Of a stretch of 64,000 bases of DNA, positions 5,601 through 48,355 are shown one piece after another. The number at the start of each line of letters is the position of its first letter. Position 1 is the stretch's first letter. The notes beneath the pieces are model-generated. The model was not told the origin of the DNA, did no database searches, and was given only the letters and a program-made list of their open reading frames with translations. The position numbers and the translations under genes are program-made. Source of the stretch: Nitrosopumilus adriaticus (GTDB taxonomy: Archaea; Thermoproteota; Nitrososphaeria; Nitrososphaerales; Nitrosopumilaceae); NCBI RefSeq assembly GCF_000956175.1, contig NZ_CP011070.1:620001-684000 (forward strand). Direction: 5' to 3'.

Positions 5601-5842
5601 CCTCCATTAAATTCAATTTTTTTTCCTTGTAATGTATTGAATCTATACCACAAATCTTTGATGACTCTGCCTCTTAGATGTCCTGCATGTGGAATTCCGT
5701 TCATTGTTGGTGGACCTTCAATAAATCTAATTTTTTCAGGTTTATCTGATGCAAAAATTTGTTTTTCTAAATCAATAGATTTGATGTATTCTTTTACTTG
5801 GGTCTCTACTGATTTTGCATCAAACTTTGTAGAAAGTTCCAT
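2645..5842 (-). CDS. ileS: Isoleucyl-tRNA synthetase
   Basis: This class I aminoacyl-tRNA synthetase charges tRNA-Ile. Its 1065 residues fit archaeal/eukaryotic-type IleRS. The HIGH signature appears as PHAGH at residues 51-55 after GPPTMNG, the KMSKS loop as GGKMSKSKGN near residue 598, and CPSCQTSLSH near 183 is a zinc-binding cluster. The editing domain lies between them. The gene is divergent from purD, with 83 bp between the two starts. Essential single-copy function is expected. Confidence 0.97.
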   Translation of the reverse strand: MELSTKFDAKSVETQVKEYIKSIDLEKQIFASDKPEKIRFIEGPPTMNGIPHAGHLRGRVIKDLWYRFNTLQGKKIEFNGGWDTQGLPVELQVEKELGVSGGKTEAIKQFGIERIVTECKKVVKKYNKSWVEVDELLGMSFNHEKAYWTYRDEFIEREWQVLKKAHENGILEEDFTVIAYCPSCQTSLSHAEVNQGYEEVKDPSLYYKVKLVDEDAFLIVWTTMPFTLVTDAMVGLQPEEDYAYVKIENETWVVGKTRLEEFMTEIKIENYKIEKTVKGSEFEGKKYAHPLLEEIPELRECSKSNNFHVAVSETFVDASTGSGLVHLSPANGEEDIKIANKRKVKIFSPIDDEVKFTKDAGKYQGMFVRDADRTIVEDLKEHNALVKIGKIKHKYPLCWRSHHPIVWLARRGWFYKLDRLENKAIDAAESVEYFFEQPKNRFLGIIKEKHPWCISRERIWGCPLPVWNCEDCGEKNWFFSRKEIVDAATNLPDGPDFELHRPWIDNITIKCKKCESSKTKREEYVLDTWHNSGSAPYSSLTDEQYANEIPAPFFTEGIDQTRGWAYTLLIENVILNNGPNPPYKSFLFQGHVLDENGGKMSKSKGNVLEGAELLQKYPVDLIRFYFMWKASPIEPLSFSTDELMSRPYQVINTLFNLHLYFKQNSQYDNFEQSNTISWAKQNDLLTSPDIWLLSKLQKLIQKITEKNQTCKFHESAKAIDDYIINNLSQIYIPITRGELWDEDEDKKNRRLSIYAVLSEVLKTLDILIHPFCPFTSEYLYQTVFEGKQSILLDKWPEYEKSLVNEEIEESFDIMKDVVSVSSAARMKGKLKRRWPLNEAQICVKKDQKTKLESLSDLLQSQLNVEKFSIVETQKDSGLEQILELRQLGMPVKPVIELERKRIGPKAKQHMGKLVAKFAETNPEEIISSLQENSKYDFDIDGEIISLDKEDYVVDFDASENFAVSKRDNYIVFISTSRNKEMMAKGLIKDIARRLQTLRKERGYNPTDVLETASILDLDEESLEMIQDKADDLAFLVRVKQVNFSESCKEYKDDDIDGQKIRISVE

Positions 5843-7745: not shown

Positions 7746-8598
7746 TTTGAGTACTCAATGATGCAGCAGTAATTGTATTTTTTAATAGCATGGCAACTGT
7801 CATTGGACCAACTCCTCCTGGAACTGGTGTTGCAAAAGATGCTTTTTTAATAATTTGCTCATAATCCGAATCTCCTACAAGTTTTTCTTCAAATCTGGAT
7901 ATTGCAACATCAATAACAATTGCATCTTGTTTAATCATTTCTGGTGTTAGAGTGAACTTGTTTCTATCTCCCACTGCTGTAATGATGATATCTGCGGATT
8001 TGCAAAACTCTGTAAGGTTCTTTGTTTTAGAGTGGCATGTTATTACCGTGGCATTTTTTTCTAATAATAGATGATAAAGTGGCTTTCCTACTAGATTGCT
8101 TCTATTAATCAAAACAATATTTTTTCCTTCTAGATCAATTTTATGATGTTCGAACATTTCCATTACACCTGATGGTGTACATGCTACAAGTGCAGCTTTT
8201 TTCATGGCAAGTAATCCTGCATTATGTGGGGTTAATCCATCAACATCTTTAATTGGTGATATTCTTGATGTGGTTGCAAATTCATCTAGCTGTGGGGGTA
8301 ATGGAAGCTGAACTAGAATTCCATGCACTGAACTGTCGGAATTGAGATTATCGATGATTCCATTTAGTTCTATTTGTGTGACATTTGAATCCAGTTTATG
8401 ATCTTTTGTTACAATTCCTACTTCCTCACATGCAATGTGTTTGTTTCTTACATATGTGGCAGATGCAGGATTGTCTCCTATCAAAATCGTGGCTAAACAT
8501 GGGTTGATTCCTTGAGATTTGAGCTCTTCTGCTGCCTTTTTTACCCTGTCTTTGACTGATTGAGCAATTACTTTGCCGTCAATCTTAATGCCTGTCAT
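7735..8598 (-). CDS. folD: Methylene-THF dehydrogenase/methenyl-THF cyclohydrolase
   Basis: Bifunctional FolD interconverts 5,10-methylene-, methenyl- and 10-formyl-THF with NAD(P). The 287 residues show the classic motifs: SATYVRNKHIACEEVGI near 47 (catalytic K), VQLPLPPQL near 97, DVDGLTPHNAGLL near 119, INRSNLVGKPLYHLLL near 165 (Rossmann loop) and PVPGGVGPMTVAMLLKNT near 258. It leads a two-gene operon with the cyclo-ligase. A THF pathway is expected in this lineage and would feed purN with 10-formyl-THF. Confidence 0.97.
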   Translation of the reverse strand: MTGIKIDGKVIAQSVKDRVKKAAEELKSQGINPCLATILIGDNPASATYVRNKHIACEEVGIVTKDHKLDSNVTQIELNGIIDNLNSDSSVHGILVQLPLPPQLDEFATTSRISPIKDVDGLTPHNAGLLAMKKAALVACTPSGVMEMFEHHKIDLEGKNIVLINRSNLVGKPLYHLLLEKNATVITCHSKTKNLTEFCKSADIIITAVGDRNKFTLTPEMIKQDAIVIDVAISRFEEKLVGDSDYEQIIKKASFATPVPGGVGPMTVAMLLKNTITAASLSTQIGR

Positions 8599-8642
8599 AC
8601 TTTGATTTTGATTTGTAGATATTTAATTCTTGGAATTCATAA

Positions 8643-15770: not shown

Positions 15771-16183
15771 TTTGTGTGGTCTTCTGTTTTTAGCCTTTGA
15801 AAATGCCTTTGCCCTACGTTTGTTTTTTGTTTTTCCAACCTTTTACGTGTACGTTCAGTGGCATTTGTTGAGCCTTGAATAATTTTTGTTTTACTCCCAT
15901 CCCTCAACATAATCTCCTTTCCTTTGAATCTAAATTCTACATCTCTGCATTTGATATAGTATTTTTTGAGACAAAAAAATATCCTGTTATTTGTACCATG
16001 CATGTCTTTGACTTCCTTTGATTTTTTTAATTCATTGATGATATTCCGCAGTAGTCCCTTGTCTATGTCTGTAATTCTATGTATTTCTCTAAACCAGATA
16101 AATTTTGACTCTGAGCCCCATTCCTCTAAAAGTTCTAGTACTTTTTGGGTTGCATCCTCATATTCTTCATTAATTTTACTCAT
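15671..16183 (-). CDS. Winged-helix-like hypothetical protein
   Basis: The N-terminal 75 residues resemble a winged-helix DNA-binding domain: KVLELLEEWGSESKFIWFRE, then ITDIDKGLLRNIINELKK as a helix-turn-helix and a wing ending RIFFCLKKYY. A strand-rich middle part (VEFRFKGKEIMLRDGSK) and a basic tail TERTRKRLEKQK follow. It might be a small transcription factor. The final 33 codons overlap the opposite-strand acidic gene by 100 bp and have low-complexity Ser/Arg character, so the functional part may be the first 135 residues. Confidence 0.6.
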   Translation of the reverse strand: MSKINEEYEDATQKVLELLEEWGSESKFIWFREIHRITDIDKGLLRNIINELKKSKEVKDMHGTNNRIFFCLKKYYIKCRDVEFRFKGKEIMLRDGSKTKIIQGSTNATERTRKRLEKQKTNVGQRHFQRLKTEDHTNHKESSDCLREKLNSARLSFEDSATSSVISYKL

Positions 16184-30558: not shown

Positions 30559-30622
30559 ACTTTTTTTACAATTTTTCTATATCAAAAGGAATTGTTCTGA
30601 ATTTTTGAACAAACAAATACGT

Positions 30623-40012: not shown

Positions 40013-40601
40013 CTAACCATTAATTTTTTGATTTATTATTTCTTCAATTTCAGGAAGAATTTCATCCTTTTCAATATTTTTAATTTCTTCAGATGAGATA
40101 TTATCAGTTTCTTTTGACTGCGATACTGGGTCTTTATTTTCGTTTTCCCCTATGAATTCAGGAATATCTAAAATAACATATAATTTCTCATTTACTTTTG
40201 CTATCCCTTTGATGTATTTTGTATCATTGAATGCTTCCAATGGAGCCGTCTCGATATCTTTTTTATTTAATCTTAATACCTCATTTACTTCATCTACTAA
40301 AAGACCTGTAAGTACATTTTTAGAATCTGCAACTAGAATTCTTTGTTTTGTGTGATTGGCATTGGTATTATTTGAAATCCCAATCTTACTGTTAACATCA
40401 ATTACTGGAATAATTTTCCCTCTTAGATTCATGACTCCTTTAACAAATGATTTTGATTTTGGTATTTTGGTAATTGTGCCAACAGTCTTAATTTCTTTGA
40501 CTTGCTGAATTGGAACTGCATAATTCCCATTTTTTTGATGATTCATTTATGGTAAATGTCACAACTTGCAGAATTTCATTTGAATTTTTTTCTTCAGACA
40601 T
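40013..40601 (-). CDS. cheW: CheW adaptor, reading frame interrupted
   Basis: CheW couples receptors to CheA. The conserved CheW core reads NGNYAVPIQQVKEIKTVGTI, then SFVKGVMNLRGKIIPVIDV, followed by an acidic tail of about 40 residues. The expected N-terminus is present in another frame: ATG at 40601 overlaps the receptor stop as TAATG and encodes [19 protein letters not shown]. The two frames meet at a run of seven T on the given strand (40530-40536, A7 in the gene). Removing one base gives a continuous full-length CheW. Unshifted, the upstream frame stops after about 36 codons, and the downstream frame could only start at an internal ATG (40546), losing the first strand. This may be a sequencing error, programmed slippage or real decay. 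Confidence 0.85.
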
Positions 40602-41968
40602 TAAAAACCGCCTTCTTTTAATTTTTTAATTATTCCTCTGAAAAATGGATTTGGGTTTTTACCAGTCTCTATATCTTTACATGCTTCTTCAATACCTGTC
40701 ATCTCCATTAATTCTGTAATGGGTGTTCCAATGCAAATGTAGCCTTTAATTTTTTTCTCTTCATCAAATATTGGACTAATTGTTGTTTTTAACCAATATG
40801 TGCTTTTATCGATAACTGTATTTCTTATGTAACCTTGGAAAACTTTTCCACTTGAAATCGTTTGCCATAAATTATCTAGTAGTTTTTTATCATGCCAATC
40901 TAATTTGAATATCTTGTGCATTTCTCCCTTTAATTCTTCTTTATCCATTTTTGTAATCTCTAAAAAGAAATTATTCATGTAATTACTTAATCCATCAATA
41001 TCTGTAGTGGATATGATAGTTGACGAATCTATGACGTCTGTAATTTCAGCTAAAGTATTTGCTGAAGTGTTTGCATCTTTTAGAATTCTTGTTTCTCTAT
41101 CTTGTGCCTGTGCAATATCTGAAAAGCTACTTAGATTTGTTTGGGCTACTGACAACACTTCTTCACTTGCAGCAGTTGCCTCTTCTGTACCGCTAGATAC
41201 CTGTTCTGTAGCTGCTGAAATTTCTTGCATTTGAGCAACAACTTCCGTAATTGAAATTGAGATATTTTTTATTGATACTAGAATATTTGTGATTACTCCA
41301 TAAGCATCTTGAACTACACTATTTCCTTTCTGAATACTATCTGTTGTTTTATCTGATGAATCTTTTAATGATGTTACAAGGTGTGATATGTCTTCAGCTC
41401 CTTTTTTAGAATTTTCAGCTAATCTTCTTACTTCATCTGCTACAACTGCAAATCCCCTGCCTACATCTCCTGCTCTAGCTGCCTCTATAGCTGCGTTAAG
41501 TGCTAACAGGTTTGTTTGTTCAGCAATTTGGGTGATAAATGCAGTCATGTTATCGACTTTGGCAAGTTCTAGTGTTAGTTTTTGAACATCTTTTGATGAT
41601 TCAGAAACAATGGACTTCATACTGTCCATCTTACTCATACCCTTTTCGGCATCAGCACTAATGGTTTGAGTAATTTTTTCTGATTCTTTCATCATATTCA
41701 TTGCTTTGTTTGCATTTACTGCAACTCCTTGAATTGCAGTTGCTATGGATTGCAATGACTGTGACACTTCTTCAATTCCACTGGTTTGACTTTTTGTTGC
41801 TGATTCTAATTCCATTACTGTATTACTAAGCTGTTCTGAAGCAATTACTGCTTCATCAAATGTCCTTAATACCTTTGATGTGATTTTTTCATCATCTGCT
41901 GAATCATTAAATGTTTGTTCTGTTCTTGTTAATTTTTTGTCAATAGCCTCAGTTGATTGTGATGTCAT
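40601..41968 (-). CDS. Soluble methyl-accepting chemotaxis protein with C-terminal PAS
   Basis: This is a chemoreceptor without transmembrane segments, 455 residues. The methyl-accepting signalling domain comes first (about residues 40-310) with the highly conserved tip [20 protein letters not shown] and [16 protein letters not shown] near 150-190. A PAS-like domain follows at about 325-430 ([20 protein letters not shown], then [20 protein letters not shown]). It would sense an internal signal such as redox or a small ligand and signal through CheW/CheA. Its stop overlaps the cheW start. Confidence 0.93.
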
Positions 41969-46511: not shown

Positions 46512-46991
46512 TTAAGACACGGAGAATATGTGATCGTTTGACTCTCCATTTGATATTGTGAATTGAATCAAATATGATGTTGAAGTTTGTAATGCAGAAT
46601 CATCTTGTAATTGGATTTGTATGGTTTCCCCTTGATTCCAAACTGAACTAGGATCTTTAGTTCCATTAAAACTCCACTGGGGATTTGAACCTGAAGAATA
46701 TCCTACATAATTTACCGATGTAATCGGCCCGAAATACACATCAACTGAATCTAATTCTCGAATTGGAGTTAATCCTGTATTTTTTATCCAAGCCTTCACT
46801 GAAGTATTATTGATTTTACTTACGTGGATGATTTCAAACTTGCTTAACATTTTATCTTTCTGTGCTTCAGTATTTGCTGTGTAATATCCTTCAAATGTCC
46901 CGACTTTACTTACAACTATTCCTGTGATTAGCCCTGCAACCACTATTGATGCTATAATTAAAATCCCTTCACTAATCATTCCAGATGACAT
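46512..46991 (-). CDS. arlG: Archaellum stator protein ArlG/FlaG
   Basis: This 159-residue protein has a TM (MISEGILIIASIVVAGLITG) and a beta-rich external domain (IIHVSKINNTSVKAWIKNTG, DSVDVYFGPI). Position and form match ArlG, which forms filaments capped by ArlF. Its ATG overlaps the stop of the upstream PVVQE-repeat gene (TAATG), giving translational coupling. Confidence 0.82.
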   Translation of the reverse strand: MSSGMISEGILIIASIVVAGLITGIVVSKVGTFEGYYTANTEAQKDKMLSKFEIIHVSKINNTSVKAWIKNTGLTPIRELDSVDVYFGPITSVNYVGYSSGSNPQWSFNGTKDPSSVWNQGETIQIQLQDDSALQTSTSYLIQFTISNGESNDHIFSVS

Positions 46992-48355
46992 TATTTCACC
47001 TCATTTTCAATAGTTTTTGCCAACATTTTTTCCATATCTGATTTCTCTTCATTTTCATTGATGGGCTCATTTGAGTTATTTTTTTTATCGATAAATTGCT
47101 TTAATTGTTTTTCATCAATTGTAATGTTCAAAGTTTTGCAATGTACTTTTGTTAGCTCAAATACTTCTTCAGGGATAAAATCTCTTGATAACTCGTCTAC
47201 TAATGATATGATATCTTCAGGCAATTCTGCATCTTGCACAACAGGTTCTTGCACAACAGGTTCTTGCACAACAGGTTCTTGCACAACAGGTTCTTGCACA
47301 ACAGGTTCTTGCACAACAGGTTCTTGCACAACAGGTTCTTGCACAACAGGTTCTTGCACAACAGGTTCTTGCACAACAGGTTCTTGCACAACAGGTTCTT
47401 GCACAACAGGTTCTTGCACAACAGGTTCTTGCACAACAGGTTCTTGCACAACAGGTTCTTGTTTTTGTGAATTTGGTTTGATGTTATCTGGAGATTTTTC
47501 TGATTTTTGAACTAATGCATCCACATTAATCGTTTGAATATTTTCTTTAAATGGTGCATCTTCCTTCATAAAGTTGAGTGGATTATTCATATCTGTAGTC
47601 AATAATTTAATGTCTGTCAATGTAGTCTCAAAAGAATTTGAAAGAATTTCAACTTCTTCTTTAACGGTAGTTAGATCCTGTTTGAACTGATCAAAGTCTG
47701 TTTTTAGGGTCTGTATGTCATTTTCAATGGGTTCCATTTTTTCCATAATGATTAATTCTGTATCTGAATTATCTAGTGAAGAATCCGAATAATTATCTCC
47801 TTCATTTGTTTCTGCACCTGCCAGTAAAGCTTCAATTTCTGGATTTCCTCCAATACCTTCTTCAGGTTTATCTCCCTCTTCTGTTTTTGCTAGCATTGCA
47901 TCAATCTCAGAATTTCCATTTTCTTTACCCTCTGCTTCTGTTTTTGCCAGTAAAGCTTCCATTTCGGATGTGCCTGAATTATTTTCTGAACCTGTTCCTG
48001 CTAATAGCGCATCAATCTCAGAATTTCCTGCAATCTCAGAATCTGCATCTTCAATTTGATTTTGAGTTTCGATCTCAGAATTTTTAGTATTTCCTTTCCC
48101 TTTAATAGAAATACTCTTCAATGAAATGTTTTTTAATGAAAAGTTTTTTAAATTAATTTTTTTAATATTTAGACCGACTACAACTACAACTAGTGGTACA
48201 ACTAAAGTAAATAAAACATATTGTTCATCAAAAAGATATTCAGGAAACATTTCATATAATACAAGAAAATACATTGCAAATCCTGAAAAAATAATTAATT
48301 TTAAATTGCTTTCACTAATTTTTATTTTAGAAAAAATAGTTGATGGGAGGAGCAT
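46991..48355 (-). CDS. ArlX/ArlCDE-position motor scaffold with repeats
   Basis: The 454-residue protein lies where crenarchaeal ArlX or euryarchaeal ArlC/D/E are found. It has two TM segments (about 18-33 and 45-62) and a row of five-residue units (INLKN FSLKN ISLKS ISIKG, 67-86). Four copies of an EIDALLA-type motif follow at about 112-119, 130-137, 149-156 and 172-179. Then come a coiled coil (about 208-255), fifteen PVVQE/PVVQD repeats (301-375), a conserved helical domain (SLVDELSRDFIPEEVFELTK) and a last motif DMEKMLAKT at 440-448. The coiled coil and C-terminal domain are of ArlD/E type. It probably forms the cytosolic or membrane motor collar. Transmembrane start plus TAATG coupling to arlG support one transcript. 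Confidence 0.82.
   Translation of the reverse strand: MLLPSTIFSKIKISESNLKLIIFSGFAMYFLVLYEMFPEYLFDEQYVLFTLVVPLVVVVVGLNIKKINLKNFSLKNISLKSISIKGKGNTKNSEIETQNQIEDADSEIAGNSEIDALLAGTGSENNSGTSEMEALLAKTEAEGKENGNSEIDAMLAKTEEGDKPEEGIGGNPEIEALLAGAETNEGDNYSDSSLDNSDTELIIMEKMEPIENDIQTLKTDFDQFKQDLTTVKEEVEILSNSFETTLTDIKLLTTDMNNPLNFMKEDAPFKENIQTINVDALVQKSEKSPDNIKPNSQKQEPVVQEPVVQEPVVQEPVVQEPVVQEPVVQEPVVQEPVVQEPVVQEPVVQEPVVQEPVVQEPVVQEPVVQEPVVQDAELPEDIISLVDELSRDFIPEEVFELTKVHCKTLNITIDEKQLKQFIDKKNNSNEPINENEEKSDMEKMLAKTIENEVK
47231..47460 (+). repeat. 15 x 15-bp perfect tandem repeat
   Basis: Unit TTCTTGCACAACAGG is repeated fifteen times in a row; only the first copy differs, at its first base (A for T). It encodes PVVQE on the minus strand. 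The unit length is a multiple of three, so copy-number change keeps the frame. Confidence 0.97.

Follow-up and report, generated by a model that had tools for sequence, protein, structure and literature searches.

A one-base break at an A7 run splits cheW in the Nitrosopumilus adriaticus assembly and is probably a homopolymer error

Introduction

N. adriaticus has been proposed to live attached to particles, on the grounds of its motility and chemotaxis genes (PMC12448741). Here, we studied a 64,000-nucleotide stretch of its genome (the window; positions 620,001 to 684,000 of contig NZ_CP011070.1), in which cheW, the gene of the adaptor CheW, is divided between two reading frames that meet at a run of seven A residues. 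The locus raises the question of whether the gene is truly broken, is decoded by some form of slippage, or is whole in the cell and interrupted in the assembly. A sequence-only reading of the window had left slippage that tunes the dose of CheW, phase variation and assembly error side by side as options. We therefore compared the locus with those of relatives, and screened the genome and its relatives for similar breaks.

Results

One CheW is split across two frames

The whole cheW locus lies at 40013-40601 on the minus strand. Upstream of it is an intact gene for a soluble chemoreceptor (40601-41968, minus strand), which shares the sequence TAATG with the start of cheW, and translation confirmed that ATG 40601, overlapping the receptor stop, opens a CheW N-terminus. 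As assembled, this upstream frame (40490-40601, minus strand) encodes 37 aa, namely 24 residues followed by WELCSSNSASQRN* at the stop codon 40490. Its first 22 codons (40536-40601, minus strand) form the N-terminal segment of CheW. The frames join at the A7 run (40530-40536, minus strand), which is followed by a T at 40529; after TCA AAA AAA the upstream frame continues as TGG GAA TTA and ends at 40490. The remainder of CheW, running from GNYAVPIQQVKEI to the stop at 40013, is displaced by one base from the upstream frame and lies in a 177-aa frame (40013-40546, minus strand) whose ATG 40546 is inside the upstream frame. No single open frame for CheW was found, the assembly breaking at 40529, where the window is shifted by +1 relative to three relatives. 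Both frames and their junction were thus as described from the sequence alone: one CheW, split across the A7 run.

The 177-aa frame matched positions 11-135 of the 138 positions of the CheW profile PF01584, while the intact protein of the closest relative, G036, covered positions 1-136. The body of the domain is accordingly recognized by the profile, and its missing start is found in the other frame, homologous to the N-termini of relatives. No second separate cheW was present in the genome, a single contig of 1,803,090 bases, the only other CheW match being the CheW domain of CheA, which bears out the view that this is the sole cheW of the locus.

We then considered which base is in excess. 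G036 reads ACA AAA AAA GGG AAT TAT and the window reads TCA AAA AAA T GGG AAT TAT, and because of this alignment the surplus base could be either the T or an A. Removal of the T gives KKGNYA, a form common among relatives, and removal of an A gives KNGNYA; the joined protein would read INESSK-NGNYAVPIQQVK or INESSKK-GNYAVPIQQVK across the junction. The proposal that removing one base restores CheW stands, with this refinement.

No relative examined shares the split

Homologues of the 177-aa protein were found in 52 genomes, counting that of the window, out of 250 in the family, and G036 was 70% identical over the 177-aa query. The upstream sequence was read at 32 loci besides that of the window. 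In all 32, the N-terminal strand and the body of CheW share one frame, and the out-of-frame arrangement was seen in none of them (0/32), indicating that the split is confined to the window's genome. The N-terminal segment in the window is homologous to the N-termini of G036, G094, G055, G057 and G093, and ATG 40546 is not conserved as a start among the relatives. Many of the loci have an in-frame run of A at the homologous site, with A7 in G036, G055 and G128, A6 in G094 and G057, and A9-A10 in the four genomes of genus g2; a run of such length is therefore not in itself a frameshift signal in the lineage. In comparison with G036, the codon-position pattern was 0.18/0.14/0.45 for the N-terminal segment (22 codons) and 0.20/0.13/0.45 for the remainder (161 codons). 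Both segments thus retain the pattern of a functional gene, and any loss of cheW must be recent. A scan of the CheW fragment against genome contigs, a set that may omit near relatives of the window, returned two distant bacterial loci only.

Similar breaks occur in unrelated genes of the same genome

Proteins of relatives were aligned to DNA by a frame-aware dynamic programme over 264 kb of the window's genome (G000), comprising about 170 kb of compared coding sequence; sample positions 1-64000 are those of the window, and higher ones continue into the genome. We found about seven homopolymer-linked single-base frameshifts in these roughly 170 kb, cheW included. The others lie at sample positions 15825, 99606, 152506, 159129, 229616 and 240196, those at 152506 and 159129 being supported by one relative each, and in nearly all of them the alignments placed a one-base change within or next to a run of A or T. 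The broken genes are unrelated to one another and encode a conserved 139-aa protein and a 94-aa protein (both at the C-terminus), a 360-aa protein, a phosphoribosyltransferase-like protein, a Hef-like helicase and a type II/IV secretion ATPase. No broken gene other than cheW was found by this screen in the che/archaellum locus. The archaellum region also encodes a protein with about 15 tandem copies of PVVQE (46991-48355, minus strand).

The helicase gave matches in 93 of 95 genomes, including all 56 of those at least 90% complete. Among the matches listed, it is split by a frameshift only in the window's genome (G000:C1:848457-849961) and in G009 (G009:C1:884128-885629), in the same A-run region, and both are single-contig genomes. 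Its Pfam domains are DEAD and Helicase_C only, 'Hef-like' being our own reading. The secretion ATPase (G000:C1:858993-860650) is split with one base missing near an A8 run, and has an unbroken frame from end to end in G094, G055, G036 and others. The conserved 139-aa protein (15788-16183, minus strand) lacks its last ~20 residues, with one base missing in an A-run at 15825-15828, and its C-terminus is intact in seven other genomes.

Several apparent breaks were set aside. Those at 5840 (ileS), 8639 and 30568 correspond to 5′ extensions of the open reading frames in relatives, the true start being the downstream Met. At 30568-30620 (minus strand) and 8560-8640 (plus strand), relatives have an open frame upstream of the start Met that is frame-shifted in the window, and this conserved sequence is probably non-coding leader DNA. 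Two shifts in opposite directions (89368/89454), in the low-complexity tail of an aldolase-like protein, were excluded from the count, as were the breaks at 122162, 122337, 154841 and 235515, which were weak or too near the N-terminus.

Seven Nitrosopumilus genomes (G094, G055, G005, G007, G036, G093 and G006) served as controls in the same screen, with about 634 kb compared. They yielded about one homopolymer break of this kind, a count that omits mirror images of the breaks in the window's genome and was sorted by hand, with N-terminal extensions and shifts outside A/T runs set aside. The chance that at least seven of the eight events fall in the window's genome is 1.2e-4, or 0.002 when the five firmest breaks only are used. 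Homopolymer-linked single-base breaks are thus in genome-specific excess over the genus controls. About three homopolymer breaks were found in 89 kb of G009, and no excess in 62 kb of G007, which we take to be the sister genome N. piranensis D3C.

Elsewhere in the genome, two Cas1 genes lie 30 kb apart at 1,076,333 and 1,106,857, the second adjoining the EF-2 gene at 1,108,492 (G000:C1:1076333-1108812). This pair matches the two casposons described in tandem in ef-2 of N. adriaticus NF5 (PMC6563490). A second strain of the species with a sequenced genome, CCS1 (CP167059.1), shares about 98% ANI with NF5 (PMC11428151).

Discussion

Homopolymer slips that are confined to single assemblies and hit a core gene suggest sequencing or assembly error. 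The split of cheW is probably such an error, a one-base homopolymer indel in the assembly, and the gene would otherwise be ordinary and intact; for the excess of frameshifts as a whole, errors rather than mutations are the most likely source. This was one of the options of the sequence-only reading, and the homopolymer slips in unrelated conserved genes favour it. Counting against it are the lack of such an excess in G007, the support of two of the seven breaks by a single relative each, and the proneness of homopolymers to true mutation. In the cell, CheW would be translated from ATG 40601 in a single frame and would link the receptor to CheA in the normal way. If so, the chemotaxis locus of this genome is to be taken as complete, and the case is mainly a warning that the annotated truncated CheW, the split helicase and the split secretion ATPase should not be read as biology.

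The main rival to an assembly error is a real and recent knock-out, in which a true frameshift cost a laboratory culture or strain its cheW where chemotaxis was not needed. The cell would then make a 37-aa fragment, perhaps together with a truncated CheW from ATG 40546, and would be non-chemotactic; archaella and receptors would be present without a working CheW. A-runs and other homopolymers are hot spots for true mutation, the genome has no second cheW, and a break that is private and leaves the body of the gene undecayed is what a recent loss would produce. However, a single genome would have had to suffer many separate homopolymer knock-outs, one of them in a helicase that the whole genus conserves, and elsewhere the che/archaellum locus shows no decay. 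We therefore consider a knock-out unlikely.

Slippage of RNA polymerase on the A7 run, restoring the frame in some mRNAs so that a truly broken gene still yields some full-length CheW, is very unlikely. The run lies exactly at the frame junction, and in Buchnera slippage at homopolymers has been suggested to rescue frameshifted genes, as discussed in PMC5574713. However, restoration here needs one base fewer or two more, and the available measurements disfavour this change: genome-wide data from E. coli and Buchnera show that the transcription errors prevailing in A/T runs are insertions, mostly of a single base, that deletions seldom begin there, and that no restored frame was detected (PMC5574713), while the E. 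coli polymerase, a bacterial and not an archaeal enzyme, requires at least seven T, and even more A, in order to slip (PMC6260861). Runs of A7-A10 at this site also stay in frame in relatives. A wider form of this idea, in which the genome holds dozens of true poly(A)/poly(T) frameshifts and makes the proteins, CheW included, through polymerase slippage at short A-runs, is highly improbable; if true, it would place a free-living archaeon beside the endosymbionts for which such rescue has been proposed.

Equally improbable is phase variation, with the length of A7 varying in the population and switching CheW ON and OFF. There is a homopolymer at the junction, and loss of cheW could, by our reckoning, be tolerated; however, A7 is short and very common, the window holding 78 A or T runs that are exactly seven bases long, and the OFF state appears in no relative despite run lengths of A6 to A10. 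Programmed ribosomal frameshifting at A_AAA_AAA is hardly credible: the upstream frame TCA AAA AAA does put the canonical -1 slippery heptamer in phase, but a -1 slip leads into MGIMQFQFSKSKK..., which is unrelated to CheW and stops after 33 residues, a +1 shift being the one required. Relatives moreover read runs of A as long as this one, or longer, without leaving the frame, and the arrangement is conserved in none of the 32 other loci. Slippage as a means of tuning the dose of CheW, suggested from the sequence alone, thus finds no support in the direction of the standard -1 ribosomal slip or in the in-frame relatives, and similar slips in unrelated conserved genes also speak against it.

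Programmed -1 frameshifting is known at heptamers of the A_AAA_AAG type in dnaX and insertion sequences. These cases resemble cheW in that the upstream frame carries an in-phase heptamer, and differ in that the shift of cheW is in the wrong direction and its arrangement is not conserved. The genes of Buchnera and Blochmannia frameshifted at poly(A) likewise share an A+T-rich genome and a break at a poly(A) run with the present case, whereas the runs or directions of slippage rescue are unmatched here, and the host of the window is a free-living archaeon. In content, the gene resembles the CheW (PF01584) of Nitrosopumilaceae: once both frames are joined, the window has the whole domain, beside a receptor in the che/archaellum locus and with its start overlapping the receptor stop. 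It differs in that the frame is uninterrupted in those genes and is broken after residue 22 by an extra base in the window. The break itself resembles the homopolymer errors of older sequencing platforms, being a single-base change linked to an A/T run, as are the breaks in unrelated genes of single genomes (G000, G009).
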